A stretch of 64,000 bases of DNA from Blastopirellula sediminis (lineage in GTDB: Bacteria; Planctomycetota; Planctomycetia; Pirellulales; Pirellulaceae). The stretch's first letter is position 1; every line of letters begins with the position of its first letter. The notes beneath the pieces were generated by a model. That model made no database searches. It was not told where the DNA came from and saw only the letters and a list, made by a program, of their open reading frames with translations. The DNA lies in NCBI RefSeq assembly GCF_020966755.1, contig NZ_JAJKFT010000001.1:1-64000 (forward strand), given 5' to 3'. The position numbers were made by a program, and so were the translations under genes. Positions 5,306 to 39,065 of this stretch are shown here, piece after piece.

Positions 5306-5364
5306 GCGCAATCTTTCCGCGAGATAAAAGCATCTCTTAATTAAAAAATAAGGGGAAGGAGCCG

Positions 5365-5393
5365 ATTTTAGATGCGCTTTCTAGGGTAGTCAA
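5365..5393 (-). promoter_or_regulatory. Sigma70-type promoter for acs
   Basis: Read on the minus strand: TTGACT (5393-5388), a 17-base spacer, then TAAAAT (5370-5365). This gives a predicted start near 5358 and a leader of about 50 bases before the acs ATG. The element lies just after the DUF1080 stop, so acs can be transcribed independently of the upstream pair. Confidence 0.6.
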
Positions 5394-5399
5394 CGAACC

Positions 5400-6104
5400 T
5401 TAGGGAAGCTGAGAATTTGGCTCGCCTGAAGAGACTTTGAGTGGCTCGATAACCACATTGCGGAAATAGAGCGGCGTGGGGCCCCCGTCCAGAGTGATGG
5501 GGCCTTCGGTATCGAGGTGAATATCATCGACAACCGCGATCCGACATCCATTGAGCCAGACGTCGACCTGATGACTGCGAACGCGAATCGTCATGTGATT
5601 CCATTCGCCGAGCGGCTGATCCGTACAGCGCATCGGTTTGATAACGCGACGACAACCTTGATAGATCGCGCCAGACGAACGACGCTGATCGGCGCCGTCG
5701 CTATCGGCGTCGCCAATGGCAACGCTCCAGCCTCCAGGCAGGCCAATCGTCGCCGATGAGCAAGGCTCGCATTTCCATTGAAACGACAAGATGCAAGGAC
5801 CGAAGTGACGTTCGGTCTCGATCGGCTTGCCGGCGCCATCGTATTGCAGGATGCCGAACGCCGCTTGCCAGTGAACGCTCATATCGTCGGCGGCGAGTTC
5901 GGTGAGCACTTCGCGATCTTGCGGGGAGAGTTCGTTGGCGTCGCAGCGGATCGTGGGACGCCAACCTTGCAGATCACGTTCGTTGAAGAGCTTCGATTGC
6001 GATAGTTCCGGCGCGTTGTCGAAAGGGGCGGACCAGCAGACGCTCGCCGACAATACGATCAGCGCAGTCCCCGCGATGCGGAGACGCGAAGCAAACTTGC
6101 CCAT
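5400..6104 (-). CDS. Secreted DUF1080 (3-keto-disaccharide hydrolase-like) protein
   Basis: About 234 residues with a signal peptide (KFASRLRIAGTALIVLSASV..SA) and a concanavalin-like DUF1080 beta-sandwich: KLFNERDLQGWRP near the start, FQWKCEP, GAIYQG, PLGEWNHMTIRVR, VWLNGCRIAVVDD and a final PLYFRNVVIEPL. These blocks are the standard DUF1080 signature, very abundant in planctomycetes and thought to act on sugars or glycosides outside the cytoplasm. The frame extends to a TTG at 6131 that overlaps the stop of the upstream DUF6807 gene; the internal ATG at 6104 gives a more usual signal peptide, but translational coupling from the TTG is possible. Probably one operon with the upstream gene. 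Confidence 0.85.
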   Translation of the reverse strand: MGKFASRLRIAGTALIVLSASVCWSAPFDNAPELSQSKLFNERDLQGWRPTIRCDANELSPQDREVLTELAADDMSVHWQAAFGILQYDGAGKPIETERHFGPCILSFQWKCEPCSSATIGLPGGWSVAIGDADSDGADQRRSSGAIYQGCRRVIKPMRCTDQPLGEWNHMTIRVRSHQVDVWLNGCRIAVVDDIHLDTEGPITLDGGPTPLYFRNVVIEPLKVSSGEPNSQLP

Positions 6105-6123
6105 TTGCACTCGCGTGAAAGTC

Positions 6124-7362
6124 TTATTCAACGATCGAAACCTGCGGCGGTTGATTGAAGCTGGCGTACGACTCGGCGATCGCGTCCGGAGCGATTTCTC
6201 CTTCGGTCAGATAAACGCGGTAGTTCACTTCCAGCGGTTCCTCTTGCGGAACGTCGGTCGCAAAGTAGGAACCAAATCGCCCGTAATCCCGTTCGCTGAA
6301 GCGAGCCGGTTTCGGATTGGTCGGACGATCGAGGTAACAGGTCGAATAGGTCTTGTCGAAAGCCTCGAAGACGAGCACGTTCCACGGCAGGTCGACATGT
6401 TCCTTCTGACCGGGCCAGTTGCGGAAGGCGCCCGGTTTTCCCTTGCCGTCGGGACGAATGTAGAAGGTCTTTTTGGCGGTATTGTCCGGAACGAACTGCG
6501 TTGCGCGGAATTGGAATCCTGCGTGCTGCGGATCGCCGTCAAGCTTCAGGTCGTCGACCTTGCTTTCGAGTCGCGACGCGAATTCGATCAGGCGTCCTTC
6601 CGGCGTGCGATAGACGGTCAGCTCGCGTTCTTCTTCAGCAAACGGCTTGCCGTCACGTCCGCGCCATTCGACTTGCAGCAATTGGCGACCGAGGACGGGG
6701 CCAGCTTCGCTGCTGATGACTTTGATGTGAGCTTGCGATTCGCCGTTGTTGCAGTGCCAGACGTCGGCGTTTTGCTTCTTGCCGTCAGCCGAGTAGCTGA
6801 TGCGATTGAAGCCGTAGAACAGGCCGCGGTGATGCGGGAAGAGCCCGCCGGGGCCCTTGGTCAGCAGGTTATTGCCATCCAGGTCAAAGACATGGTGATA
6901 TACCTTGAAGGTTTCGTGGCGACGCTCAGGTGATGAGTCGTCGAGCGCCTCGTACATGTAACGCAGCACCGGCTTATTGCCGTCGAGCAGATCCATCGAC
7001 TTGCCCGGCGTGTCTTTCCAGCTGTACTCTTGTCCCCCTGCACTTCCGCCAAATTCAACGGTCGCCGTCAACTTGGCGCCTGCGTCGAGTTTCGGAAGGA
7101 CGAAAGTCAGCTCGAGGTCTTTCGTGGCGTCCGCTTTCGAGAGCAGGCTCGGAGCGGTCAGCTGACCAACCAGCTTCGTGCCATCCGAAAGAGCGACCGT
7201 CGCGACCTGCGCGTCGCCAGCGGCAGCCTTGGGAACAGCGACGGTGACCGGCACATTGATCTCGGCCTGGTCCGACGCGGTGATTTGCAGTTTCAAGGGA
7301 GCGGCAACGGCCGCCGAGTAGACGAGCAAGGTCAGCGCCAAAGCGATTGGCCAGCGGAGCAT
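6124..7362 (-). CDS. Secreted DUF6807 (PmoA-like) family protein
   Basis: 412 residues. The ATG at 7362 is preceded by AAGAGG 8 bases upstream and begins a clear signal peptide (RWPIALALTLLVYSAAVAAP). The motif PHHRGLFYGFNRISY, followed by DVWHC, is the hallmark of the DUF6807 family, earlier named PmoA-like and mostly found with sugar-catabolic genes in planctomycetes. The frame is open 42 codons further upstream, but that stretch has no signal-like start and is unlikely to be translated. Its stop overlaps the possible TTG start of the DUF1080 gene, which suggests coupled expression. Substrate unknown. Confidence 0.85.
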   Translation of the reverse strand: MLRWPIALALTLLVYSAAVAAPLKLQITASDQAEINVPVTVAVPKAAAGDAQVATVALSDGTKLVGQLTAPSLLSKADATKDLELTFVLPKLDAGAKLTATVEFGGSAGGQEYSWKDTPGKSMDLLDGNKPVLRYMYEALDDSSPERRHETFKVYHHVFDLDGNNLLTKGPGGLFPHHRGLFYGFNRISYSADGKKQNADVWHCNNGESQAHIKVISSEAGPVLGRQLLQVEWRGRDGKPFAEEERELTVYRTPEGRLIEFASRLESKVDDLKLDGDPQHAGFQFRATQFVPDNTAKKTFYIRPDGKGKPGAFRNWPGQKEHVDLPWNVLVFEAFDKTYSTCYLDRPTNPKPARFSERDYGRFGSYFATDVPQEEPLEVNYRVYLTEGEIAPDAIAESYASFNQPPQVSIVE

Positions 7363-7521
7363 CTTGCAACCTCTTGGGGGGGAAGGATAGGCGAGATAGT
7401 CACGTACAGAATAAGTCGCCGACTGGATTGGTTCAACCTGGGCGAATCGGCCGCGACCGGACTGGACTCGACCGCTTCGTTTTTTCACGTTGGATCAATT
7501 CCAACCCCCCCGTCATTATTC

Positions 7522-7716
7522 GTTAGCGCCCAAATGGACGGTGGACTGGACTGCTATATTTTTTCCCGGACTGGCGGGCGAACCGGACCGGCGGAATTTG
7601 TTAGCGCTCGAATGGACAGTGGACTGGATCGCGTCATTTTTTTTCCGCCGGACCCGCGGGGTTTGTTAGCGTCCGAATGAACAGTGGACTGGACGGCGCG
7701 AAATTTTTTTTCGGCC
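7522..7716. repeat. Three degenerate tandem repeat units
   Basis: Three head-to-tail units start at 7522, 7600 and 7665, each beginning GTTAGCG(C/T)(C/T)C followed by AATG(A/G)AC(A/G)GTGGACTGGA and ending in a T-rich block. Units are 78, 65 and about 52 bases. A weaker unit can be traced at about 7455-7490 (GACCGGACTGGACTCGACC then TTTTTT). It fills the gap between the DUF6807 start and the glycosyltransferase stop. No open frame of note covers it. Function unknown. Confidence 0.75.
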
Positions 7717-7812
7717 GAAGCATCATCCGAAGGGGAAGTGCCGCAAGCCATCTCGCAATCGACCACGATCGCGTGCGCTTTGTCAATAGACAAAGACTGC
7801 CCGGAAGAGGGG

Positions 7813-8568
7813 CTAAGCCGACTTCGATTGCGATGTGAAGATCGAGCCGAGCCCAAGACGGGCGATCAGGTAGAGAGCGCGAACCGCTTCGCGCCAGTTG
7901 ATCTTCGAATAGCCACGTTCCCGCTCAACGAAGACATAGGGAACCTCGCAAAAGGTCGCTCCCGCCATCCGAAAACGCCAGAGGATTTCCTCGAAGAACG
8001 AATAGCCCTTCGAGACGATCGCGTCAAAGTCGAGCCGGGCGAGGGTCGCGACGCGGTAGCAGCGAAATGAGCCGCTGCAATCGCGAACCGGCAGACCTAA
8101 GAGCAATCGCGTATAGAAGTTGATCCCGCGACTCATAAAGCGGCGATGGAGCGGCCAGCCTTGAACGCCGCCCCCTGCGACATAGCGAGAGCCGACCACG
8201 ACGTCGACGTCGCTCGTTTTGGCGACGGCGAGCAGGTCGACGATCTTTTGCGGCGTGTGGCTGAAGTCGGCGTCGAGGTTGACCATTAAGTCATAGTCGC
8301 GGTCGATCGCATACTTCATTGCGGCGATGACGGCGGTCCCTAGTCCGGCGCCCCGGGCACGATGCATACAGGAGAGACGCGGCTCGTTGGCGGCGAACTC
8401 CTGGCACCATTTGCCAGTTCCATCGGGGGAGTCGTCGTCAACGACCAAGATGTCGGCGTCAGGGACAGCGTCCAGGATCTCGGCGACCAGCAGCGGAAGA
8501 TTGTCGATCTCGTTGAACGTCGCGACCGCAATCAACACGGTGTGAGAGGGTGGGCGGTCGTTCGACAT
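7813..8568 (-). CDS. Polyprenol-phosphate glycosyltransferase, GT2
   Basis: 251 residues, resembling dolichol/polyprenol-phosphate mannosyltransferase (DPM1-type). Seen: N-terminal TVLIAVATFNEIDNLP (nucleotide-binding start of GT-A), VVDDDSPDGTGKW, DLMVNLDADFSHTP (metal-binding DAD), SRYVAGGGVQGWP, DCSGSFRCYR, and EVPYVFVERERGYSKI. There is no C-terminal membrane domain, so it would be a peripheral enzyme transferring a sugar from GDP- or UDP-sugar to a lipid carrier. The start MSNDRP at 8568 matches the family; the longer frame adds 30 unlikely residues. It is divergent from the MFS gene and opens the surface-glycan region. Confidence 0.88.
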   Translation of the reverse strand: MSNDRPPSHTVLIAVATFNEIDNLPLLVAEILDAVPDADILVVDDDSPDGTGKWCQEFAANEPRLSCMHRARGAGLGTAVIAAMKYAIDRDYDLMVNLDADFSHTPQKIVDLLAVAKTSDVDVVVGSRYVAGGGVQGWPLHRRFMSRGINFYTRLLLGLPVRDCSGSFRCYRVATLARLDFDAIVSKGYSFFEEILWRFRMAGATFCEVPYVFVERERGYSKINWREAVRALYLIARLGLGSIFTSQSKSA

Positions 8569-8671
8569 GCAAGGTAGGGAAGCAACAAGGGAAAATGGCC
8601 CGCTGGTCACGGGAGGCAAGCTCGTATAATAGCTGGAATTCCCCGCCCTGTTTACCAACCTTTAAGATTCC

Positions 8672-9988
8672 ATGTCCGCGACGAGCGACAATTTTTCGCC
8701 CGAAAATCCTTACAATCGCGACTTCTGGCTCGGATATTTCGCCAATTTGGCGTTGATCGTCGGGATGAGCAGCCTGTTTCGGTACGCCGACTTTATCGCC
8801 TATTTGGGCGGCGGTCCGTATCAGTTGGGGCTGGTGACCGGCTGCGGGATGACGGGGGGATTGCTGGGCCGGTTTCTGCAGGGGCGGCTGATCGATCGGC
8901 TGGGACCTCGCACCGTTTGGCTTTGCTCTCTCTTCGCGTTGACCCTGTTCGTGCTGTTGCACCTGACCGTTCAGAGCCTCCATTCTCCTTGGATTTTCCT
9001 GCTGCGGATCGGGATGATGATCAGCGTCGCAGGGGCCTTCAGCGCTTCGCTGACCTCCGTTTCGCTGAAAGCTCCGCCGGGGCGAACGGCGGAGATGGTG
9101 GGGGTTCTCGGCTCATCCGGGTTTATCGGAGTGGCGATTGGACCGGTGATCGGAGACTGGATTTTTCAGGGGGACCAGGTCACCTTCGGTCAGATTCAGG
9201 CGATGTTCTTCCTGTCGGGAGCGATGTTCGCCGTCTCGATGTTGCTCGCTTATCTATCGACTCGCGGTGATCTTCGCACGCCCCATCATGAGCACCCTGC
9301 CCTTTGGACGCTCGTACGATCGTTCAATCCCGGATGGTTGCTGCTCATGGGGATGGTTGTGGGAGGAGGCGTTCTGATGCCGCAGGTCTTCCTGCGGAGC
9401 TTCGCCGACTCGCTGGAGATCAATCAGATTCGGTACTTCTTTCTCGCCTACGCGCTGACGGCGTTTTCGGTCCGGATTGCTACGCGGCAGTTCACCGATC
9501 GCTACGGCGTGAAGAATACGGTCATCTTCGGCATGACCTGCCTGGTGTTGTCGATGATCGCTTATCTGCCGGTCACCGCGTATTGGATGCTGCCGCTGCC
9601 TGCGGTCTTTGGCGGAGCGGCGCACGCGTTCTTGTTTCCGGCGGTCGTTGCCGGGGGAGCGACCGTTTTCCCGCGTCGTTATCGCGGAACCGGCACCAAC
9701 TTGATGTTGGCGTCGCTCGACTTTGGTTCGCTCGTCGGCTTTCCAATGGAAGGGGCGATCGTTACCTGGGCCGATGAGCTGGGTTGGCCAGGATATCCGA
9801 CAATGTTTACGGTCCTGGCGGTCACGTTCGCCACGACGACGCTTCTCTACGCAGCCTTAGGCCGGAAAGAGATCGGCGAAGAGTACGGCGAGGAGTTTGA
9901 CGTGGAGTCGCCGGCGCCGATCGAACCGGCGCCGCAGTGCGAGCTGGAAGTCGATCAGGCCGATCGTGAAGCGACGAGCTGTCGATAG
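8672..9988 (+). CDS. Major facilitator superfamily transporter
   Basis: 438 residues with about 12 hydrophobic segments, an MFS-type loop (GRFLQGRLIDRLGPRTVWL, about 70-88) between helices 2 and 3, and its counterpart RQFTDRYGVKNTV in the second half. The C-terminus is acidic and cytoplasmic. Substrate cannot be assigned. A TATAAT box lies at 8625-8630, about 42 bases before the ATG, without a convincing -35. The 3' end overlaps the convergent epimerase gene by 34 bp. Its position between a polyprenol-sugar transferase and an epimerase does not by itself show a glycan role. Confidence 0.88.
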   Translation: MSATSDNFSPENPYNRDFWLGYFANLALIVGMSSLFRYADFIAYLGGGPYQLGLVTGCGMTGGLLGRFLQGRLIDRLGPRTVWLCSLFALTLFVLLHLTVQSLHSPWIFLLRIGMMISVAGAFSASLTSVSLKAPPGRTAEMVGVLGSSGFIGVAIGPVIGDWIFQGDQVTFGQIQAMFFLSGAMFAVSMLLAYLSTRGDLRTPHHEHPALWTLVRSFNPGWLLLMGMVVGGGVLMPQVFLRSFADSLEINQIRYFFLAYALTAFSVRIATRQFTDRYGVKNTVIFGMTCLVLSMIAYLPVTAYWMLPLPAVFGGAAHAFLFPAVVAGGATVFPRRYRGTGTNLMLASLDFGSLVGFPMEGAIVTWADELGWPGYPTMFTVLAVTFATTTLLYAALGRKEIGEEYGEEFDVESPAPIEPAPQCELEVDQADREATSCR

Positions 9989-16499: not shown

Positions 16500-17828
<1,329 letters not shown>

Positions 17829-17886
17829 ATCGAATCGTTCGACTTGTCACCTATTCAACGGGCAAGTCGAGCAAAAGATACGCACG

Positions 17887-17917
17887 GGGGCTGCGACGTT
17901 GTTCGCAGCCCCTTTTT
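17887..17917 (+). terminator. Rho-independent terminator after ahcY
   Basis: Perfect 10-bp stem GGGGCTGCGA (17887-17896) / TCGCAGCCCC (17903-17912), 6-base loop and T5 tail. It ends 32 bases before the next start codon. Confidence 0.93.
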
Positions 17918-17949
17918 GTTTTGTTTGCACACGAACGAGTAAGCATCGA

Positions 17950-19272
17950 ATGCCACAGATTCAAGCAATTCGCGGACTCCGCTACGACTTGGGCCACGTC
18001 GGTTCGCTCAGCGACGTCGTCGCGCCGCCGTACGACGTGATCGGCCCGGAACTTCAGGATGAGCTCTACAAGAAGCATCCTGCCAACACCGTGCGGCTGA
18101 TCCTGAATCGCGAAGAGCCCGGCGATGATGACGCCAACAATCGCTACGCCCGCGCCGAACGTTTCCTGAAGACCTGGATCCGCGAAGGGGTCCTGACGCA
18201 AGAATCCGATCCGGCGATCTACGTCTATCACCAGGAATTTGAAGCGGAAGGCAACCGCTACGTCCGACACGGCTTCATGGCCGGCGTAAAGCTGGTCCGC
18301 TTCGGCGAAGGGAACATCTACCCGCACGAAGAAACGCACTCGTCCGCCAAAGCGGATCGTCTGAAGTTGTTCAATGCAACCAAGACGAATCTAAGCCAGA
18401 TCTTCGGCCTCTATCCCGATCCGGGGAACAAGACGCAGAAGCTGCTTGACGATTACGTGATGGACAAAACCCCGCTGGTCGCGACCGATCACCTGGGAGT
18501 CGTTCACCGCCTCTGGCCGATCACCGATCTGCAGATCATCTCGCAAGTCTCCGCCGCGATCGCCGACGCGCCGATGTACGTCGCTGACGGACATCATCGC
18601 TACGAGACCGCCTGCAATTACAAAGACCAATTGGCGGAGTCGGGCGAATTGACCTCGGTTCATCCCGCCAACTACGTCATGACGATGCTGGTCAGCATGA
18701 GCGATCAGGGAATGATCGTCCTGCCGACCCATCGCCTCTTCCGCGGTCTCCCCGCGATGAGTTCGGATGACCTGGTCGCCAAGCTGGGCGAATACTTCGA
18801 CGTGACCCTTTCCGGACAAGGCGCCGACCAGGCCGACACGATCTGGACCGACATCGCCACCGCCGACAACCAGGGCCAAATCGGCTTTTACTGCCCGGTC
18901 GACAATACCTGGGTGATGGCCACCATCAACGAAGCGGGCGAAGCGAAGATGGCCGAAGTCGCCGCCGAGCATAGCGGCGACTGGCAGGGACTCGGCGTTT
19001 CGATCCTTCACCGCCTGGTGATCGAGACCTTGCTGGGCGCCAAGGATCTGCCGAAGGCCAACTACGTTCACCTGGTGAGCGAAGTGGAGGAAGGGATCGA
19101 ACATGGCGATCCGGAAAACGGCGGCCAGCCTTATCCGTTGGCGGCGGTCGTGATGCCGGCCACGATCGACCACATTCGCAGCATCAGCGAACATGGCGAA
19201 CGGATGCCGGCCAAGAGCACCTACTTCTATCCGAAGCTGCTCAGCGGGCTCGTCTTCAATCCACTTACCTAG
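17950..19272 (+). CDS. DUF1015 family protein
   Basis: 440 residues. The ATG at 17950 gives the family start IQAIRGLRYD. Signature blocks: VAPPYDVIGPELQ, ANTVRLIL, YVYHQEF, RHGFMAGVKL, IYPHEETHSSAKADRL, LFNATKTNLSQIFGLY, YVADGHHRYETACNY and TYFYPKLLSGLVFN. DUF1015 (SerC-like, HipA-fold suspected) is conserved in many bacteria and archaea, but its biochemical function is not established. It follows ahcY after a terminator and is followed by a terminator embedded among parS sites, so it is probably a single transcription unit. Confidence 0.9.
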   Translation: MPQIQAIRGLRYDLGHVGSLSDVVAPPYDVIGPELQDELYKKHPANTVRLILNREEPGDDDANNRYARAERFLKTWIREGVLTQESDPAIYVYHQEFEAEGNRYVRHGFMAGVKLVRFGEGNIYPHEETHSSAKADRLKLFNATKTNLSQIFGLYPDPGNKTQKLLDDYVMDKTPLVATDHLGVVHRLWPITDLQIISQVSAAIADAPMYVADGHHRYETACNYKDQLAESGELTSVHPANYVMTMLVSMSDQGMIVLPTHRLFRGLPAMSSDDLVAKLGEYFDVTLSGQGADQADTIWTDIATADNQGQIGFYCPVDNTWVMATINEAGEAKMAEVAAEHSGDWQGLGVSILHRLVIETLLGAKDLPKANYVHLVSEVEEGIEHGDPENGGQPYPLAAVVMPATIDHIRSISEHGERMPAKSTYFYPKLLSGLVFNPLT

Positions 19273-19284
19273 CCAATCGTTACC

Positions 19285-19298
19285 GTTTCACGTGAAAC
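19285..19298. promoter_or_regulatory. parS: parS centromere site 1
   Basis: Exact palindrome GTTTCACGTGAAAC, the core of the bacterial parS consensus TGTTTCACGTGAAACA bound by ParB. It begins 12 bases after the DUF1015 stop. Confidence 0.95.
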
Positions 19299-19309
19299 GC
19301 GACCAATCC

Positions 19310-19347
19310 AAGGGGCGTTTCGGGCATCTGTCCGGAACGCCCCTTTT
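19310..19347 (+). terminator. Terminator after the DUF1015 gene
   Basis: Stem AAGGGGCGTT (19310-19319) / AACGCCCCTT (19336-19345) extended by CGG/CCG inside, followed by TTTT. It sits between parS sites 1 and 2. Confidence 0.85.
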
Positions 19348-19360
19348 GCGTAATTTGGGC

Positions 19361-19374
19361 GTTTCACGTGAAAC
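19361..19374. promoter_or_regulatory. parS: parS centromere site 2
   Basis: Second exact copy of GTTTCACGTGAAAC, 76 bases after site 1 (start to start). Confidence 0.95.
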
Positions 19375-19397
19375 AGGTGAGTTTGAGCCGAATGTGC

Positions 19398-19411
19398 GTT
19401 TCACGTGAAAC
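19398..19411. promoter_or_regulatory. parS: parS centromere site 3
   Basis: Third exact copy of GTTTCACGTGAAAC, 37 bases after site 2 and 116 bases before the parA start. It probably overlaps the parA promoter region. Confidence 0.95.
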
Positions 19412-19527
19412 ATGGCGATTTCCGTTTTTCGCGGGGGAAATGACATTCCGCGTTTGCGCGCTTCCTCGCTAGAATCTCCACCCGCGCACCGCCAATCGGC
19501 TTCGCGTGAAGGTCCGTGAGGGAAACT

Positions 19528-20274
19528 GTGGCTCGAATCATCTGCATCGCGAATCAGAAGGGAGGCGTCGGCAAGACGACCACCGCCATTAATTTGGCAG
19601 TGGCGCTGGCCAAGTCGGCCCAGAAGACGCTGCTGATCGATCTCGACCCGCAGTGCAACGCGACGACCGGATTGAACCTGACTCCGACCGATCGGCATCC
19701 GCTCGTCCTGCAGCAATCGCTGCGGGACGCGATCAAGCCGACGGCGGTTGCCGGACTCGATCTGCTGCCGGGGAGCCGGAGCTTCCAGGATGTCGAAACC
19801 CTCGCTTCGGACGATCAGCCGCAGGCCGCCGTGCTCGAGTCTCACTTGGAACGGGGCATGGCGGGCTACGACTTCGTCCTGATCGATTGTCCCCCATCAG
19901 TCGGCAAGCTGACCCAGACGGCGTTGTCGGCGTCGACCGAGGTGCTGATGCCGATCCAATGCGAGTACTTCGCGATGGAAGGGCTGACGCAGATGATTCA
20001 GGTGATCCGCGGCGTCATGCAGCAGAAGCCTGACCGATTGGCGTTTGGCGGGATCGTGCTGACGATGCACGATCCGAGATTGGAATTAACCGCCGAGGTC
20101 GAGGAGGAAGTCCGCGACTTCTTCGGCGAAGTGGTATTTGACACCGTGGTCCCCCGGGATGTCCTCGTCAGCGAGGCTCCGAGCCACGGCTGTTCGGTAA
20201 TTGATCATGCGCCCCGCTCACGAGGAGCACGGGCTTACATCGAACTATGCATGGAGGTACTCGAGCGTGACTAA
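19528..20274 (+). CDS. parA: Chromosome-partitioning ATPase ParA/Soj
   Basis: 248 residues. Deviant Walker A QKGGVGKTT near residues 10-18, A' motif LLIDLDPQCNATTG, Walker B DFVLIDCPPSVG, and QCEYFAMEGL, all typical of ParA/Soj. It works with ParB and parS to separate chromosome origins. The GTG at 19528 is preceded by GAGGG at 5 bases and yields the standard start ARIICIANQKGG; the GTG four codons upstream (19516) is less likely. The last 8 bases overlap the start of parB, so the two are translationally coupled. Three parS sites lie just upstream. Confidence 0.96.
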   Translation: MARIICIANQKGGVGKTTTAINLAVALAKSAQKTLLIDLDPQCNATTGLNLTPTDRHPLVLQQSLRDAIKPTAVAGLDLLPGSRSFQDVETLASDDQPQAAVLESHLERGMAGYDFVLIDCPPSVGKLTQTALSASTEVLMPIQCEYFAMEGLTQMIQVIRGVMQQKPDRLAFGGIVLTMHDPRLELTAEVEEEVRDFFGEVVFDTVVPRDVLVSEAPSHGCSVIDHAPRSRGARAYIELCMEVLERD

Positions 20275-21265
20275 GCAAAAGCGATTGGGACGTGGATTGG
20301 CGGCGCTGTTGGGCGGGCCGATGGATGAGACCGGCGCTCTGACCGACGCCCCGATCGAAGCAGGCGCGCCCCGGGTCTTCAATCCGGATCACCAAGACGA
20401 ACCGGCCGCCGCCGTTGCACCAGCTGCCGAAGAGTTCGCCGGCGAGCGACTGATCAAGTTGCCGGTCGAAGAGATCGACGCTAACCCTTACCAGCCGCGG
20501 CAAGAGTTCAACGACGACGAGATCGCCGAGCTAGCACAAAGCCTCCAGCAGCACGACATGCTGCAGCCGATCGCCGTCCGCATGGTCGAAGGGCGTTACC
20601 AGCTGATCTCGGGCGAACGTCGCCTACGAGCCGCGATTGTCGCCGGTTGGGACGAAGTCCCGGTCCGCGTCTTTGAGGCGGACGACCAGACCGTCGCCGA
20701 ACTGGCGATCGTCGAGAACCTGCAACGCAAAGACCTGAACGCGATTGAAAAGGCGATGTCGTTCGAGCGCTATCTGCACGAACATGGCTGCACCCAATCG
20801 GAACTGGCCGAGCGGATCGGCGTCGATCGCTCGACCGTGGCGAACCTCCTCCGCTTGCTCGAGCTGCCGGAACCGGTGATGACCGCCGTGATGACCGGAG
20901 AGCTGACAGCCGGACATGCCCGGGCTTTGCTGCCGCTGGGAGAAGAAGGAATCCAGGTTGAGTTCGCTCGCCGGATCTTCGAGGAAGGTTGGAGCGTGCG
21001 AGGGACCGAAGAAGCGGTCCAGGATTACATCCACTCCAGCGACGGCCCGCAGACGATCAAAGCCCCGATAAAAAAAGGGCGAACCGTCAGCGACCAGGTC
21101 GCGTCCCTCGAGCAGGAATTCCGCATGGCTCTGGGGACTAAGGTCGACATCAAACAGTCGGGCCGCGGCGGCAAGATCGTGCTCCATTTCAAGGGAAATG
21201 ACGAGTTCGATCGAATTCGGGATCACTTACTCGGCGGCGCGACCGAACTGCGGAAAGCCGGTTAG
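20267..21265 (+). CDS. parB: Chromosome-partitioning protein ParB/Spo0J
   Basis: 332 residues. The GTG start at 20267 overlaps the parA stop (GTGACTAA) and has GGAGG 9 bases upstream; it gives the usual TKQKRLGRGLAALLGG opening. Domains: ParB/sulfiredoxin CTPase fold with IDANPYQPR and the ISGERRLRAA box, central helix-turn-helix with QSELAERIGVDRSTVANLLRLLELP that recognises parS, and a C-terminal dimerisation region. Loads on parS and slides as a CTP-dependent clamp in this family. Confidence 0.96.
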   Translation: MTKQKRLGRGLAALLGGPMDETGALTDAPIEAGAPRVFNPDHQDEPAAAVAPAAEEFAGERLIKLPVEEIDANPYQPRQEFNDDEIAELAQSLQQHDMLQPIAVRMVEGRYQLISGERRLRAAIVAGWDEVPVRVFEADDQTVAELAIVENLQRKDLNAIEKAMSFERYLHEHGCTQSELAERIGVDRSTVANLLRLLELPEPVMTAVMTGELTAGHARALLPLGEEGIQVEFARRIFEEGWSVRGTEEAVQDYIHSSDGPQTIKAPIKKGRTVSDQVASLEQEFRMALGTKVDIKQSGRGGKIVLHFKGNDEFDRIRDHLLGGATELRKAG

Positions 21266-21349
21266 AAAAACGTGCCTCCTTGTGTAAGGATGTATAGTGC
21301 ACGTGTCATTGTCAGGTTCCCGTTCGGCGGATAAGATCGGGAACTTACT

Positions 21350-21424
21350 CGGGGTGTAGCGCAGCCTGGCTAGCGCATCTGCTTTGGGAGCAGAGGGTCG
21401 CAGGTTCGAATCCTGTCACCCCGA
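21350..21424 (+). tRNA. tRNA-Pro (anticodon TGG)
   Basis: Cloverleaf with acceptor stem CGGGGTG / CACCCCG, D-loop AGCCTGGCTAGC, anticodon loop TTTGGGA (anticodon TGG at 21385-21387), T-loop GGTTCGAATCC, discriminator A, and no encoded CCA. Its 3' end is the attachment site of the element that follows. Confidence 0.97.
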
Positions 21425-21426
21425 CT
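21411..21426 (+). other. attL (left element end)
   Basis: Left copy of the 16-bp direct repeat. Bases to the left complete the tRNA-Pro T-arm; bases to the right belong to the element. The invariant core is TGTCACCCCGACT. Confidence 0.75.
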
Positions 21427-21765
21427 ATTACTAGAAATGAGCCCTTCGGCGAGAACGTCGAAGGGCTTTCTTATTGTGGGCACTAGAATTACGTCATCGA
21501 GCGTCCACTTCAAACAGACAATTTCGAGGATTCGACGTTTTTCTTGGCAGTCGGCACTAAGCCATTTACTGCATAGAGTTTGCGAAAGTTCAAACGATTT
21601 CGACGCTAAGTCGCCCATCTCATCGTGACTCCGGTCGACAGCCTCTAGCGGAAGTTTGATCGCGGATAGTCGATCCCGAATCTCCGTGTTCTTTCCGGCG
21701 TAGGTTGACTGGTCGATGTCCTGTGGCAACAACAAATTTAGCAAGCGATCCTGTTGTTCGGTTAC
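21425..21765 (-). pseudogene. Serine recombinase, C-terminal remnant
   Basis: The reading frame (about 110 residues) carries the C-terminal signature of planctomycete serine recombinases/resolvases: EQQDRLLNLLLPQDID, TYAGKNTEIRDRLSAIKL, LSQTLCSKWLSAD, EKRRILEIVCLKWTLDDV, and TIRKPFDVLAEGL, ending at NSRGD over the att core. Past that point the frame runs antisense through tRNA-Pro and is meaningless. The N-terminal catalytic resolvase domain is absent: upstream, an in-frame TGA follows at once and the acetyltransferase stop lies at 21772. So the gene was cut, and the cargo abuts the break. Confidence 0.75.
21440..21470 (+). terminator. Terminator-like hairpin after tRNA-Pro
   Basis: Stem AGCCCTTCG (21440-21448) / CGAAGGGCT (21459-21467), 10-base loop, then TTTCTTATT. 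It can end tRNA-Pro transcription. On the other strand the same bases encode the KPFDVLAEGL motif of the recombinase remnant. Confidence 0.6.
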
Positions 21766-21771
21766 TCATAT

Positions 21772-22356
21772 CTATTCCGCCGCCTCAAAGTCTTCGATCT
21801 GCTTCAAATGTTTGGCAGGTATGCCGCCCACAACGGTGCCACTCGGCACGTCCTTTGTGACGACGGCTCCGGCGGCCACCACCGCGTCCTCGCCAACGGT
21901 GACTCCCGGCAGAATCGTCGCGCCAGCGCCGATCCAGGCGTTCTTCTTGATAACTACCTCACGTGGCGCCAAGGATTTTCGACGCTGTATCTCTACCGGA
22001 TGGTTTTCGGATGTGATGTTGACCCTGGGGCCGATCATGACACCGTCTTCGATCGTGATGCCCCCTAGGTCGAGAAACGAGCATGCATGGTTGATGAACA
22101 CGTTCTTGCCAAGCGTGATGTTCCGTCCATAGTTGGTATGCAGCGGAGGAAACAAGGTCGTGCTTTCGTCCACTTGTTGCCCAATTAGCTCGCCAAGGAA
22201 GCTGCGGACCTGATCTGTGTCCGCAGCGCCGTTGAGTTGGATCAAGAGTCGAAACGTGCGGTTCACCGCCTCGGCAACCAGGCTGAAGCCCGGGTCGTCC
22301 ATCGGTACTGGTTCGCCAGATCGCAATCTCGCAAAAATGTTACTGCGATTTTCCAT
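21772..22356 (-). CDS. Hexapeptide-repeat O-acetyltransferase (LacA/Maa type)
   Basis: 194 residues. The second half is a left-handed beta-helix with hexapeptide repeats: YGRNITLGKNVFINHACSF, DGVMIGPRVNITSENHP (catalytic His region), WIGAGATILPGVTVGEDAVVAAGAVVTKDVPSGTVVGGIPAKHLK. This is the maltose/galactoside acetyltransferase pattern, transferring acetyl from acetyl-CoA to a sugar or similar hydroxyl group. ATG at 22356; a GTG lies four codons upstream. Last gene of the cargo cluster, about 100 bases after the efflux gene. Substrate unknown. Confidence 0.88.
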   Translation of the reverse strand: MENRSNIFARLRSGEPVPMDDPGFSLVAEAVNRTFRLLIQLNGAADTDQVRSFLGELIGQQVDESTTLFPPLHTNYGRNITLGKNVFINHACSFLDLGGITIEDGVMIGPRVNITSENHPVEIQRRKSLAPREVVIKKNAWIGAGATILPGVTVGEDAVVAAGAVVTKDVPSGTVVGGIPAKHLKQIEDFEAAE

Positions 22357-22455
22357 GGTATTTCTCACTTACCGAGGCTGATTGGCTGGGTCCACTGAAA
22401 CTCGTTAATTGCTGTGCCCGCACCTGCAGTGATTTAACAAGAAGCGAATCCCCAA

Positions 22456-23967
22456 CTACGTGCTTGGATTGCTCGCTGGGGAGGATTCGCCTTGTGGCAG
22501 GCTATGCCGGAGCGCTGCTTCTGGCATGCTGGCTAGCATTGTTATCACGAGAAGCGCCCCGGAGATGATAAAGCTTGCTTTCATGCCATGTTCAAAACCA
22601 AAAGCTGTTACCAGAGCCCCAAACCCAGCCACGGCCAAAGCACCACCAACTTGGCGGCTTGTGTTGAGGACTCCACTGGCTATGCCAGAGCGGGTACTTC
22701 GAACTGAATTCAGCAGTACGGAAGTAGCCGAGGGCATCGCTAATCCTGCTCCGAGGCCAACAGGAATCATCATCGCAACAAAAACTGGAACCGATGCGTT
22801 CTGACCAAGCAGGCTGAGCAAGAAGAATCCCGTCGCCATTGCCGCTTGCCCGATAATGATCGGCACGCGGCTTCCAAATCGCTCGGCCAGTCGTGCGGCA
22901 ATGATTGGCATAGCAATTGAAAACACGGTGACAGGAGCAAAGGCGAAACCGGTTTCAAGTGGTGTTAGCCCACGTTGTTGTTGAAAGTAGAGACTGACAA
23001 GAAAGACCATGCCAAAGAAACCGGCCATGAAGGTGAAGCCGATGGCTACTGGGATGGCAATGGTAGGTGAGCGAAACATATCTAAAGGGACCATCGGATG
23101 CTTGCTTCGCGATTGAAGGAATAGAAAGGCCACTGCCGCAACTGCTGCGATGATCAGGCAGAATATCACCGTTGAGTGAGTGATCCCCAAATCTCCTGCC
23201 TGGATGAGCCCAGCGGTAATTGCGGTCAAGCAAGTAATTGATGCAACCTGACCTGCCCAGTCGAACGCGTGAGCGGTTGTTCGCGAAATGGGAACACGCG
23301 ATAGAAGCCAAAGAGCAAGTGCCCCGATGGGTAGGTTGATCAGAAAAATCAGCCGCCAGCTTAGAGTCGTCAGGGCTCCACCAACAAGTGGTCCAGAAGC
23401 AGAGGCAACAGCCCCGCCTACCGCCCAAATGCCGATAGCACGCGACCTTGCAATTGGGTCGGGATAGGCTTCACTGATCAGAGCCAATGATGCAGGGGTC
23501 ATCAATGCCGCTCCTGCCCCTTGAAGTAGGCGTGCTACTACGAGCAAACTCAGCGTGGGAGCCAACCCACACGCTCCCGAACTAATTGTGAACACGACAA
23601 GGCCGATGGCAAAAGTTGTTCGAGCTCCAAGACGATCAGACACTGTTCCCGCAAAGAGAAGAAGTGCTGCAAAGGGCAACGAATACGCATCGATAACCCA
23701 TTGAAGGCCTCCAATGCCACCGTCAAAGGTGGTTTGAATAGCAGGCAATGCAACACTTACGACAAGTGCATCGAGCGTGATGATAAAGAAGCCCAACAGT
23801 GCCGTAAGCAACGACCAGTGCGAAGCTACGGCCTTTGGCGTACTTTCCGCACCGCTAATTGAACAAGAAAGGGGCGAAAGCTCTGTGTCTGTGCGCTTAT
23901 CCTGCGTCTCATTGCTCTCAATCCGCGAGGTTCTTGCCAGCCTTGTGGGAAGCAATTTCTCAAGCAA
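22456..23967 (-). CDS. DHA2-family MFS drug efflux transporter
   Basis: 503 residues with about 14 hydrophobic segments, the mark of the DHA2 (QacA/EmrB) branch. Seen: SLLTALLGFFIITLDALVVSVALPAI (helix 1 with motif D1), LQWVIDAYSLPFAALLL, GTVSDRLGARTTF (motif A), ARLLQGAGAALMTPASLALI, and GGAVASASGPLVGGALTTLSWRLIFLINLPIG (motif C region). It exports toxic compounds or metabolites by proton antiport. It starts with TTG, supported by GGAGG 7 bases upstream. Base composition is lower in GC than the chromosome around it. Part of the tRNA-Pro element. Confidence 0.93.
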   Translation of the reverse strand: MLEKLLPTRLARTSRIESNETQDKRTDTELSPLSCSISGAESTPKAVASHWSLLTALLGFFIITLDALVVSVALPAIQTTFDGGIGGLQWVIDAYSLPFAALLLFAGTVSDRLGARTTFAIGLVVFTISSGACGLAPTLSLLVVARLLQGAGAALMTPASLALISEAYPDPIARSRAIGIWAVGGAVASASGPLVGGALTTLSWRLIFLINLPIGALALWLLSRVPISRTTAHAFDWAGQVASITCLTAITAGLIQAGDLGITHSTVIFCLIIAAVAAVAFLFLQSRSKHPMVPLDMFRSPTIAIPVAIGFTFMAGFFGMVFLVSLYFQQQRGLTPLETGFAFAPVTVFSIAMPIIAARLAERFGSRVPIIIGQAAMATGFFLLSLLGQNASVPVFVAMMIPVGLGAGLAMPSATSVLLNSVRSTRSGIASGVLNTSRQVGGALAVAGFGALVTAFGFEHGMKASFIISGALLVITMLASMPEAALRHSLPQGESSPASNPST

Positions 23968-24071
23968 ACGAATTCCTCCAAGACGTTTATTTGGGTAGAT
24001 GACACTTCAAAGTGGCATTGGCGTCCGTGATAGACTTTCCGCTGCCAACGTTCTACGATCACCTCCACTGT

Positions 24072-25247
24072 TTAGATTGTAGATGCGTCAATAACGTATC
24101 GATAACGAGCTTCTTTGTTCACGACTTTGTCCCAGGCGTTGTTGACGGCGTCTGCCTTAATGACGTCAATTTGAGGAAAAAGCTTGTTATCAGCACAGTA
24201 ATTGACCACTGCCTGGGTTTCAGCCATTCCGCCGATGAGTGAACCGTTGAAGTTCACTCGGTTGCGAATCATCAAGAAATTGTTGATTGTCAGTTTGCCT
24301 TGAATGGGCATTCCCACCTGGGTGAATTCTCTACGCGGCTTGAGTGCCATCGCGTATGCCGCCACGTCGTAGTCGTAGGGAATCGTCGAAATCATGTAGT
24401 CAAGCGAACCGTGGTGAGCTTTTAGTTTGGACAAGTCGTCAACAACGATGACCTCTTTTGCACCAAAACCCTTGATGTCATCGACCTTGCTTGGCGACGT
24501 CGTAAAAGCGTGAACTTCCGCTCCTTTCGATGCAGCAAGCATGATTGCCATGTGACCAAGACCGCCGATTCCAGCAACACCGACTTTGTCGCCCTTGGAA
24601 ATATCAGCTTGCATCAGCGGCGAGTACGTCGTAATTCCTGCACAAAGTAGCGGTGCGGCGTGCTTCAATTCAATGTGGTCAGGGATGCGAACGACAAAGT
24701 GATCTCTGACCACGATGTTGCTGGCGTAGCCTCCCTGCGTAATGCCGGTTGGCGAGCTTTCTTCAGTTGAGCCATAGGTAAAAACCGTCTTGCTTCTATC
24801 GCAGTGGTTTTCCTCGCCACCTAGACAACTCGGACACTCGAGACAGCTGTTGACCATGCAGCCAACACCTGCCCTGTCTCCGACTTTAAACTTAGTGACG
24901 TTCTTTCCAACGGCCGCTACGATACCGGCGATTTCATGCCCGGGAACTTGCGGGTATTTTTGGGGAGACCAGTGACCTCGCATTTGATGAATATCGGAAT
25001 GGCAAATGCCACAGAACTTGATGTCGATAAGCACATCATTGTCACCGAGAGGGCGCCGCTCGAATGACCAGGAAGTCAATGTTCCGGACTTGTCCTGGGA
25101 CGCCAATCCCTTGGCTTGAACATTTCCCTCTCGCACACTGGCGAAAGCGGATTGACTTCCTAGTGAGTTTGCCAGTAATACGCCAGCACCAGCAATCGCA
25201 GTGGTACGAATAAAATGTCTTCGGGACGAATTGCGAAAAGTGTTCAT
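24072..25247 (-). CDS. Tat-exported zinc-dependent alcohol dehydrogenase
   Basis: 391 residues. N-terminal Tat signal SRRHFIRTTAIAGAGVLLANS..AFA, then a complete medium-chain dehydrogenase of the cinnamyl-alcohol dehydrogenase/YahK type: CGICHSDIHQMRGHW (catalytic zinc Cys), PGHEIAGIVAAVG (His-Glu), CLECPSCLGGEENHC (four structural-zinc Cys), and GIGGLGHMAIMLA (NAD(P) loop). The family reduces aldehydes with NAD(P)H in the cytoplasm; a twin-arginine signal on it is unusual, because the cofactor is not free outside. ATG lies 4 bases after the stop of the hydrolase gene, so they share one transcript. Confidence 0.9.
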   Translation of the reverse strand: MNTFRNSSRRHFIRTTAIAGAGVLLANSLGSQSAFASVREGNVQAKGLASQDKSGTLTSWSFERRPLGDNDVLIDIKFCGICHSDIHQMRGHWSPQKYPQVPGHEIAGIVAAVGKNVTKFKVGDRAGVGCMVNSCLECPSCLGGEENHCDRSKTVFTYGSTEESSPTGITQGGYASNIVVRDHFVVRIPDHIELKHAAPLLCAGITTYSPLMQADISKGDKVGVAGIGGLGHMAIMLAASKGAEVHAFTTSPSKVDDIKGFGAKEVIVVDDLSKLKAHHGSLDYMISTIPYDYDVAAYAMALKPRREFTQVGMPIQGKLTINNFLMIRNRVNFNGSLIGGMAETQAVVNYCADNKLFPQIDVIKADAVNNAWDKVVNKEARYRYVIDASTI

Positions 25248-25251
25248 TGTT

Positions 25252-26328
25252 TTACTTTCCTCTAGCGAGGGTGTGATATTTCAAATGTTCGACGAAGAAG
25301 GATGCGAGTTTGTCGAATGGAATCACGTCAACTCGGTCGTAAAGATCAACGTGATTCGCTCCCTTAATGATGAGTAGTTCTTTCGGCTCTGCGGCAGCTT
25401 CAAATGCCGTTTCGCTGAAATAGCGCGAGTGGGCCTTTTCGCCATGAATCAAGAGTATCGGGCGAGGCGAAATCTCGTCGACGTAGGTGAGAAGCGGCAT
25501 GTTCATGAATGACAGTGGATTGGTCACTGTCCACGAGCCGTTCGAGTTAATTGATCGCGGGTGGAAACCACGCGGCTGCTTGTAGTAACCGGCGTAGTCC
25601 ACTACGAACTGCGGTTCGCCGCCCTTAAGTTCGAGAGAGATGGGGCCATATTCGGGTTGGCCATTTTCCGCATCTTGCCAGCGTTGTTGACTTAGTTGCT
25701 CTAGCGTTTGGGTGCGATCTTCCTTGGTGACGCTGTCGTTGTAGCCTTTGGACATCACCCGACTCATGTCATACATCGTGCTGGTTGCGACGGCCTTGAT
25801 GCGTTTGTCGACGGCAGCGGCGTTTAAGGCCATTCCGCCCCAACCGCAAATGCCGATAACTCCGATCCGTTCGCGATCCACAGAAGATTGCAGACCGAGA
25901 AAATCGACCGCAGCGCTGAAATCCTCGGTATTGATGTCAGGCGAGGCAACATTGCGTGGCTCGCCGCTGCTCTCCCCGGTGTAGGACGGATCGAAGGCCA
26001 GAGTGACGAATCCTCGTTCTGCCATCGTTTGCGCGTACAAGCCAGATGACTGTTCCTTCACCGCACCAAACGGACCGCTAACTGCGATCGCGGGCAGCCG
26101 TTTATCACCACGGTCTTTCGGCTGGTACAGATCGGCCGCTAAGGTGATTCCATAGCGATTTTTGAATTCGACTTTCCGATGAACGACCTTTTCGCTTTGT
26201 GGAAAGGTCTTATCCCATTGCGGCTTGTCATCTGCGACAACTGTCTCTGTGCCAGCCAGCATTCCACCCAGGATTGACAGTGCGAGATAGGTAAAGGAGC
26301 GACTGGATCGGGCTTTTGTTCTCATCAT
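25252..26328 (-). CDS. Secreted alpha/beta hydrolase with Cys in the nucleophile elbow
   Basis: 358 residues with a signal peptide (RSFTYLALSILGGMLAGTETVVA). It resembles the YcjY/dienelactone hydrolase-like alpha/beta hydrolases: YGITLAADLYQPKD, VSGPFGAVKEQSSGLYAQTMAERGF, FDPSYTGES, IGVIGICGWGGMALNAA, RPILLIHGEKAHSRYFSE, and GANHVDLYDR with the final His. The elbow reads G-x-C-x-G, so the nucleophile would be Cys as in dienelactone hydrolase. Start has AGAGG 5 bases upstream. First gene of the minus-strand cargo operon, divergent from the AraC regulator. Confidence 0.88.
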   Translation of the reverse strand: MMRTKARSSRSFTYLALSILGGMLAGTETVVADDKPQWDKTFPQSEKVVHRKVEFKNRYGITLAADLYQPKDRGDKRLPAIAVSGPFGAVKEQSSGLYAQTMAERGFVTLAFDPSYTGESSGEPRNVASPDINTEDFSAAVDFLGLQSSVDRERIGVIGICGWGGMALNAAAVDKRIKAVATSTMYDMSRVMSKGYNDSVTKEDRTQTLEQLSQQRWQDAENGQPEYGPISLELKGGEPQFVVDYAGYYKQPRGFHPRSINSNGSWTVTNPLSFMNMPLLTYVDEISPRPILLIHGEKAHSRYFSETAFEAAAEPKELLIIKGANHVDLYDRVDVIPFDKLASFFVEHLKYHTLARGK

Positions 26329-26575
26329 CTATTCCTCTCAAGTTGGGGCTGTCGTTTGGGCTTTTAGCGGATCCTTCATCAGCGAGCAGCTTCGCGTGGC
26401 CTGTCTGCCTCGCCATAGCACCCGTACATGCATTTAATGCCACCTGCTCTGAAAAGAAAAGAAACGATTCTCCAGATTGCTTGCCTAAACCTATGCGCTG
26501 CTTGAGAAACTGGTATTAAATGTGGCCAAAAGCTATAATGTTCCTGTCAATGTTAGGTGGTGTCTGGAGACGACG

Positions 26576-27478
26576 ATGAACACAGCAAAGACTGAGCAGC
26601 AGCGATTGGCGAGCATGCTCGACAAGGTAGCCATCGCAGAAGGGATGAGCCGAACGGACGTCGATGGAGTCGAAGTTTTTCGAGCTTCGTCGCCAACTGC
26701 CCGCGCACCGATTGTCTACCTCCCGCGCATTCTCATTGTTGGACAAGGACGAAAGCAGGCGTTTCTCGGAGGCGAAACGTATGTGTATGACCCAAGCAAC
26801 TACCTTGTCCTGACTGTTCCGCTACCGGCAGAGTGCGAGACGATTGCCAGTCCGTCGGAGCCAGTGCTGTTACTTTCCATCCAACTTGATCAGGCGATGG
26901 TGGGAGAGATGATATTGGAGCTGGAGGACTATCCACGTTCAGATACGCCAACGCCGCGCGGAATTTCCTCAACGCCAATGAGCACAGAAATGGCTGGAGC
27001 GGTTATTCGGCTCCTAGAGTGCCTCACGAAACCCGCCGACAGTCGCATTCTTGGTCGGCAGTGTGTTAGAGAGATCGTGTATCGCGTGCTGCAAAGTGAG
27101 CAGGGGGGTGTTGTTCGGGCGCTGGCGAGTCGGGATGACCACTTTGCCAGGATTGCTCGCGTGTTGCGGCAGATTCACATTGATTTTGCCAAACCGACGA
27201 GCGTGGAGGAGTTGGCAAGAAAGGCCGGGATGAGCGTTGCCGCGTTTCATCAGAACTTCAAGTTGGTGACGTCAAGTTCTCCTCTTCAATATATTAAACG
27301 AATCAGACTCGATCAGGCCAAATCGCTCATGGCCCATGAAGGCTACAACGCAAGCACGGCTGCTCAGGCAGTTGGTTATGAAAGCCCCTCACAGTTCAGC
27401 CGCGAATTCAAACGAGTCTACGGCCTAACGCCATCGGAAGAGGCTGAGCGAACGCGAGCACGGCTGGTCGCAAGTTAA
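26576..27478 (+). CDS. AraC-family transcriptional regulator
   Basis: 300 residues. N-terminal AraC_N cupin-like domain (VYLPRILIVGQGRKQAFLGGETYVYDP, LTVPLPAECET) and C-terminal double helix-turn-helix (SVEELARKAGMSVAAFHQNFKLVTSSSPLQYIKR and AAQAVGYESPSQFSREFKRVYGLTP). GGAG lies 7 bases before the ATG at 26576; the frame is open to a GTG at 26522, which is less likely. A TATAAT box is at 26534-26539. The layout, an AraC_N regulator divergent from an alcohol dehydrogenase/hydrolase set, is like E. coli YqhC with its aldehyde reductase genes; aldehyde sensing is an inference. Confidence 0.92.
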   Translation: MNTAKTEQQRLASMLDKVAIAEGMSRTDVDGVEVFRASSPTARAPIVYLPRILIVGQGRKQAFLGGETYVYDPSNYLVLTVPLPAECETIASPSEPVLLLSIQLDQAMVGEMILELEDYPRSDTPTPRGISSTPMSTEMAGAVIRLLECLTKPADSRILGRQCVREIVYRVLQSEQGGVVRALASRDDHFARIARVLRQIHIDFAKPTSVEELARKAGMSVAAFHQNFKLVTSSSPLQYIKRIRLDQAKSLMAHEGYNASTAAQAVGYESPSQFSREFKRVYGLTPSEEAERTRARLVAS

Positions 27479-27561
27479 TTGGGCCGGCACCGCATTACGT
27501 TAGTGACAGGCTCTGAATTTAGTATCGCAGAAGTCAGCGAATGCTGAGTTGCCGTGTATGC

Positions 27562-27657
27562 CTAACTACATACTTCGCGGATCAAACTAGCGATGTCGTC
27601 CTCGATGCCTAAGACTCCCAGTGAAAAAAGTTCTAGCGGTGTCTTGTCACCCCGACT
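27562..27657 (-). pseudogene. Displaced C-terminus of the serine recombinase
   Basis: Read on the minus strand from the att core, the frame is SRGDKTPLELFSLGVLG then IEDDIASLIREVCS and stop. The residues SRGD are encoded by the same core bases that end the remnant at 21425. The continuation KTPLELF..GV is, from memory, how intact planctomycete serine recombinases end. Joining the two element ends through the core restores one continuous frame. The frame upstream of the core is chromosomal sequence. Confidence 0.65.
27642..27657 (+). other. attR (right element end)
   Basis: Right copy of the 16-bp direct repeat, with one mismatch (T for C at the third base). Immediately after it, CTTGCC (27656-27661) and GGCAAG (27665-27670) form a small hairpin that would have followed tRNA-Pro before integration. 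Confidence 0.7.
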
Positions 27658-27687
27658 TGCCTTCGGCAAGTAGAGAGTAGAGGGGAG

Positions 27688-27792
27688 AAAGTAGAGCAGT
27701 AGAGGGAGCAGGTATCGGCTGAAACGCCGTGGTCGCCCCCAAATCCTGCCGCTCACCTTTCTCCCTCTCTACTCGGTCTACTGCTCTACTTT
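27688..27792. repeat. Long inverted repeat
   Basis: Arms AAAGTAGAGCAGTAGA (27688-27703) and TCTACTGCTCTACTTT (27777-27792) are perfect complements. Outside and inside them, further GTAGAG/CTCTAC and GGGAG/CTCCC blocks pair imperfectly, so the structure spans about 27670-27800. The left arm is itself built of repeated AGTAGAG units. No T tail, so not a classical terminator. It lies just outside attR. Confidence 0.75.
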
Positions 27793-27952
27793 CTACTCAC
27801 TTCTTCAGAGTAGTGACGCGAGGATCTAGCTTGGCGATCTCGCGTCTGCCGGAAGGCGATCGATTTCGCGGATGAGATTGGTAAGCTGTTTGCTTGCGAC
27901 GATCCGTCCACGCGATTTGAACTCTAGGTCTCTCCAGCGGTTAGATTTCGCC

Positions 27953-39030: not shown

Positions 39031-39065
39031 GCTGTCGATTTACAAGTCGCCAACTTCCGTAGAAG

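Follow-up and report, generated by a model that had tools for sequence, protein, structure and literature searches.

Recombinase remnant at a tRNA-Pro gene

The window considered here is a stretch of 64,000 nucleotides from Blastopirellula sediminis (contig NZ_JAJKFT010000001.1, positions 1 to 64,000), and the subject is a small element inserted at a tRNA-Pro gene within it. Judged from sequence comparisons, it very probably represents a tRNA-targeting type of element of the large serine recombinase kind, in which the attachment (att) site, attP, spans the final codons of the element's own recombinase gene. The features that define the locus are the following:

21350..21425, plus strand: tRNA-Pro (TGG), the gene serving as attB, left intact (ARAGORN)
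21411..21426: left core copy (attL), TCCTGTCACCCCGACT (core comparison and empty site)
27642..27657: right core copy (attR), TCTTGTCACCCCGACT (core comparison and empty site)
21415..21765, minus strand: C-terminal remnant of a large serine recombinase, 117 codons (homology)
21370..21414, minus strand: antisense-tRNA extension of 14 residues, RIRTCDPLLPKQMR, and stop, the tail of the integrated state (frame reading)
27562..27645, minus strand: P' arm and native tail frame, 27 codons (KTPLELF...REVCS), and stop (frame reading)

The two core copies are identical at 15 of 16 bases, the adjoining flanks differ, and the shared 13-mer TGTCACCCCGACT has no further occurrence within the window. Three other genomes of the genus were available in the search for empty sites. 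In the sister genome G116, window positions 17001-21426 correspond to 5009-9470 of locus L216 and 27642-27813 to 9455-9627, which constitutes an exact empty site. The same exact empty site was found by alignment in G018, while in G080 the tRNA core is followed by 16 unaligned bases and then by sequence like 27669-27873, making the site near-exact. As two of the three sister genomes have exact empty sites, 21427-27657 is a clean insertion. An original prediction, made from the letters of this DNA, had placed matching cores at tRNA-Pro and at the right end and had drawn the element boundaries there; both claims are borne out, and the empty sites rule out a chance repeat as the origin of the core pair. 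That the copies represent chance or a duplicated tRNA 3' fragment rather than att sites has a negligible probability: the core does copy the tRNA 3' end and tRNA fragments are common in genomes, but the exact empty sites in the genus contradict it, and a pattern of core plus P' arm (hereafter type I) was matched in 48 of 241 family genomes, its reversed control in none.

On the minus strand the core translates as S-R-G-D. The left frame ends in ...RKPFDVLAEGLISSNSRGD-RIRTCDPLLPKQMR-stop and the right frame reads SRGD-KTPLELFSLGVLGIEDDIASLIREVCS-stop. Up to the core the left frame comprises 117 open codons, which correspond to 377-494 in the residue numbering of a full-length homologue; it lacks the catalytic, recombinase and zinc-ribbon domains, and a Pfam search of the remnant gave no match. 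The prediction of a serine recombinase gene split by integration is thus correct as to the identity of the C-terminus, but the window holds the remnant only. That attP is situated inside the recombinase frame and that the tail is exchanged for antisense tRNA upon integration is supported, whereas the further suggestion of an enzyme switching at this locus between forms competent for integration and excision is not supported as stated, there being no enzyme here. No intact copy of this recombinase family was found in the window's genome, which does contain two more remnants in decay and two distantly related serine recombinases (31% and 26% identity). The window element is a stranded relic that has lost its enzyme and is movable only by an enzyme from elsewhere.

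The decayed C-termini L224 and L226 (G000:C4:1452066-1452419 and C4:215319-215444) are each followed by tRNA-like antisense sequence without an ARAGORN call. At L094, L119, L125, L163 and L183 the full-length homologue matches only by its last 30 to approximately 100 residues, as in the window, and such remnant-only stretches would fit non-autonomous elements kept through their att ends.

Recombinase frames running into tRNA genes

Homologues were taken as the best 80 of 107 relatives in the genome collection, and for the comparison of C-termini only matches extending to query residue 98 were retained. A survey of 100 family genomes gave matches to the C-terminal frame in 25. The distinct homologous 3' ends number 102: in 88 the frame passes into antisense tRNA, in nine into an element tail of the P' type, as recognized by motif, and in five into neither. 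The 88 ends of the tRNA type comprise 59 ARAGORN calls (Pro 53, Ala 4, Met 1, Glu 1) and 29 assignments through a T-loop motif at equal distance, and the start of the tRNA relative to the frame is identical in 52 of the 59. Where the antisense T-loop reads TGA the frame usually closes two residues past the core (61/88), where it reads CGA usually after 14 residues (12/88), and other outcomes account for 15/88. Within the nine P'-type ends, L021 has a stop after three residues and the cores of L107 and L104 are divergent.

The frame is at least 450 codons long in 53 of the 102 cases; a tRNA or T-loop lies at the end of 50 of these, a P'-type tail at the end of two (L057 and L104) and a contig edge at the end of one. 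In both L008 and L057 the Pfam domains Resolvase, Recombinase and Zn_ribbon_recom follow one another in that order, all above cut-off. The predicted structure of the L057 protein has serine integrase complexes as its Foldseek matches of best E-value, with TM-scores of only about 0.2-0.4. At the short, complete-looking element L061, which extends from a right end at 183 to tRNA-Ala at approximately 8330 with AGTGGAGG at either end, the integrated copy of the frame reaches a stop within the core. Upstream of its recombinase lies a protein of 421 residues (L061:4876-6141) without a Pfam or NCBIfam match at E 0.001.

A distant recombinase at a tRNA-Glu gene (L113) likewise has a frame that enters the antisense tRNA. 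From this the design with attP in the recombinase gene may be wider than the close family.

Right ends, native tails and tandem arrays

The type I pattern points to 85 places by count, and 77 distinct right ends were read from those loci that were retrieved; some of the 77 (L094, L096, L101 and L111) came from the homologue search and not from the pattern. Of 76 closed type I tails, 62 are 20-40 residues long and 22 have exactly 30. A second arm (type II), first found in L012, L014, L057 and L095, was matched as a pattern in 19 of 241 genomes with one match of the reversed control; its 20 sites include some that look like chance, L230, L231 and L245 among them. The register of recombinase body and tail is equal in all 12 pairings of left and right ends (11 elements, G080 having two candidate right ends).

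Recombinase C-termini continue in frame into tails of the KTPLELF type in L094, L111, L125, L163 and L183, and with a shifted frame in L096 and L119; each of the seven is a remnant or, in the case of L111, stands at a contig edge. Hence the predicted continuation of homologues into KTPLELF is seen, but in remnants and at a contig edge only. Full-length recombinases in frame with a tail are found in L057, L237 and L248, which have the type II arm, and in L104, all with tails other than KTPLELF, and the prediction on homologues is borne out in part only.

Joints of this sort occur between elements. The tandem array of three elements in G042:C331 (read without 57801-78999) has a right end at 22197, recombinase-tail joints at 34676 and 53777, and a third recombinase gene that ends in tRNA-Pro (CGG) at 96246. 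In G241:C20 a type I right end stands at 9973 and a joint between recombinase and type II tail at 39059.

Geometry of the attachment sites

The following sites were assigned within the two core regions, those of the crossover as putative positions:

21423..21424: putative crossover dinucleotide, GA on the plus and TC on the minus strand, at the end of the acceptor stem (column profiles and L061)
27654..27655: putative crossover dinucleotide of the right copy, same bases
21404..21407, minus strand: GAAC (T-loop), outer motif of the attB half-site, positions 17-20 from the putative centre (motif and profiles)
27630..27633, minus strand: GAAC, outer motif of the attP half-site, positions 22-25 from the putative centre (motif)

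In the column profiles, base -11, which is outside the search pattern, is variable in right ends (G 0.78, A 0.17) but almost constant in left ends, where base -9 shows variation (C 0.86, G 0.11). We therefore infer a crossover near -10/-9, at the end of the acceptor stem. The tRNA ends have GAAC at +7, whereas the right end of the window element and the nine homology-derived P'-type ends have it at +12, a shift of 5 bp; the 77 right ends found by pattern are excluded from this comparison, their spacing being fixed by the pattern. A 5-bp shift between attB and attP is also described for the zinc-domain motif of the LI integrase, together with an attP half-site of 25 bp (PMC3783163). In right ends, columns on the flank side lack good conservation past -12, so one half of attB seems to be enough and an existing attL could serve as target.

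The tail as protein

Tail statistics were drawn from 75 right ends, two of the 77 having too little sequence. Past the arm, 71 of the 75 have 13 or more codons without a stop in the tail frame, as compared to 45 and 49 for the other sense frames, 39, 54 and 40 for the antisense frames and 60% for shuffles. The ratio of non-synonymous to synonymous differences (pN/pS) is 0.61 in the tail frame versus 0.99 and 1.17 in comparison frames (62 non-independent pairs). Of 241 differences in 16 disjoint pairs, among them pairs of type II, 103 fall on third codon positions (p = 0.0015). The open frame and the substitution pattern suggest that the tail is probably translated and under constraint.

What such a tail might do is a separate question. 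The same anatomy would be expected if the tail were a neutral by-product, the P' arm being needed, the frame having to end somewhere and the enzyme being unaffected, and to this explanation we give not quite an even chance. The L057 model, with a mean pLDDT of 82 and a pTM of 0.40, has helices and strands to about residue 485 and nothing confident past 490 (confidence 60 at residues 481-490 and 35-42 thereafter; one row of the alignment covered the tail). Tails diverge strongly in sequence between groups, and integrated forms carry anything from 0 to 431 residues past the core, all of which agrees with neutrality. Against it stand the frame kept open above the level of other frames, the lowered pN/pS, the third-position excess and the 22 closed tails of exactly 30 residues. 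A functional alternative is a bacterial integrase whose C-terminus keeps a record of whether the element is integrated: only a circle or a tandem junction would give the tailed form, which would integrate, the antisense-tRNA form would excise or be silent, and the joint would act in part as a directionality factor. This we put forward tentatively and regard as rather unlikely.

A switch by degradation tag, as in phage BPs, would have the tail destabilize the free form and integration remove it. The lost tail is of like size, with 33 residues in BPs (PMC4557955) and 20-40 in most closed type I tails, but a common C-terminal tag is lacking (among the 62 tails of 20-40 residues, 12 end in A and three in AA) and a degradation tag would be odd on an enzyme required for integration, which makes this explanation improbable. 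Less probable still is a suicidal integrase of the SSV type, in which the gene is broken on integration and the enzyme thereby disabled: the position of attP within the gene is shared with the SSV-type integrases (PMC8371274), yet of the 53 homologues whose frame reaches 450 codons, 50 are integrated copies, and the Pfam domains and long helices precede the core.

A terminator-like structure behind the tRNA

Directly behind the tRNA, on the plus strand at 21439..21468 and thus opposite the codons for KPFDVLAEGL, lies a stem-loop resembling an intrinsic terminator (covariation and scan). Across 97 distinct sequences, a stem-loop with a T-rich tail at this place has 1129 of 1164 cells paired, at most 67% when the structure is slid, and compensatory changes; the structure was derived from the same 97 sequences, which favours the pairing score. 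The window stem has 13 pairs, and a scan of the whole window gave nine terminator-like sites versus 8.2 in shuffles, which is no excess. It seems that the element supplies a terminator to the tRNA gene that it has cut off from its former flank. That the terminator forces the peptide KPFDVLAE was considered and dropped: the distant L113 keeps the peptide without the stem, so the protein motif can stand alone.

Directly outside the right ends of L143, L144, L167, L170, L175, L178 and L179 an inverted repeat of the type AACAGCTCGCCGC...GCGACGAGCTGTT was observed, perhaps the former terminator of the tRNA. The peptide TARRxSMRRAVL ahead of several right ends was considered as a second recombinase C-terminus and rejected; by eye it is an inverted repeat in the flank.

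Proposed mode of integration

In the sequences taken together, the recombinase frame leaves the element by way of a core that repeats the 3' end of the tRNA. After integration the frame usually stops in the tRNA read backwards, two residues past the core at a T-loop TGA or usually 14 at CGA, and at a junction between elements it enters a tail, mostly of 20-50 residues, supplied by the other end of an element. The same 3' codons provide on their other strand the terminator-like hairpin behind the tRNA. Crossover would take place at the end of the acceptor stem, with the T-loop as the conserved half-site of attB and the flank side nearly free; various tRNA 3' ends and even an existing attL could consequently be used, hence the tandem arrays. 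A circular form would have the same arrangement as the junctions between elements. Since the enzyme domains all precede the core, the gene would not destroy itself but form a compact module for integration whose tail depends on its state.

Several observations weigh against this scheme. Tails of the KTPLELF type were seen in frame with remnants, but with no full-length recombinase. The in-frame tails that do occur are found at tandem junctions or contig edges, where body and tail may be from different elements, as in L057. A free circle was not found: the C-terminal query had no match in 72,556 plasmid and 50,697 phage records, and the full-length query gave distant matches only, below 60% identity, among plasmids and phages. 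Four viral contigs end in a T-loop-type stop, two of them at a contig edge, without a tRNA call. The contig of L111, which starts within the recombinase and has the tail, shows no end overlap. The search pattern fixes the core and arm of the 77 right ends, and their conservation from -10 to +20 is partly a matter of construction. A pseudo-palindromic attP is not known to be required of every large serine recombinase. Here a mirrored GAAC is absent from the P side at the matching place of the column profiles, and attP is in this respect unlike the pseudo-palindromic attP described for A118 (PMC3783163).

Relation to known systems

The phage large serine integrases (A118/LI, Bxb1, phiC31) resemble the present enzymes in domain order, in the position of the outer motif, which differs by 5 bp between attP and attB, and in the short core. 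The difference is that the present attP falls within the coding frame and that attB, conserved in one half, is the 3' end of a tRNA. With the archaeal tyrosine integrases of the SSV type the family shares a recombination site within the integrase gene. There the enzyme is split in two, whereas here the domains are those of a serine enzyme and, going by the structural model, only the stretch past the last confidently modelled element would be swapped. Mycobacteriophage BPs likewise has attP in a gene, that of the repressor, whose C-terminus loses 33 residues with a degradation tag upon integration (PMC4557955); an alteration of about 30 residues is common to both systems (here by sequence), but the gene affected here is that of the integrase itself. 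Serine recombinases that enter tRNA genes are described as rare (PMC3218068); the actinomycete integrative and conjugative elements (AICEs) of Mycobacterium (tRNA-Leu) and phage phiRSM1 (tRNA-Ser) are examples, and in using a tRNA gene they and the present family are alike. The present serine integrase thus combines features of archaeal suicidal integrases, of BPs and of the tRNA-entering serine recombinases.

Some tyrosine integrase genes overlap attP at their 3' ends. A literature search, with most subscription journals and preprints outside its scope, found no serine integrase with attP within its own frame. The att site of a large serine integrase inside its own reading frame is of interest as it concerns bacteria, self-disrupting recombinases being called exclusively archaeal in a review (PMC8371274), and a terminator for the target tRNA is added in the same codons. 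Enzymes occurring naturally with and without a tail offer material to ask what sets the direction of serine integrases, and the use of the T-loop suggests a route for one enzyme family into different tRNA genes.

Cargo and flank of the window element

Five cargo genes lie between the cores, where the G+C content is 52.5% as compared to 57.9% for the window:

21772..22368, minus strand: hexapeptide acetyltransferase (Pfam)
22456..23967, minus strand: major facilitator superfamily (MFS) transporter, DHA2-like, below the cut-off of each NCBIfam model listed (25 of 52)
24072..25247, minus strand: zinc alcohol dehydrogenase (Pfam)
25252..26328, minus strand: alpha/beta hydrolase (Pfam)
26522..27478, plus strand: AraC-type regulator (Pfam)

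The flank past tRNA-Pro (window 27658-27700) contains GTAGAGAGTAGAGGGGAGAAAGTAGAGCAGTAGAG-like sequence, which recurs in sister genomes and at another right end (L126, L185, L186 and L216).
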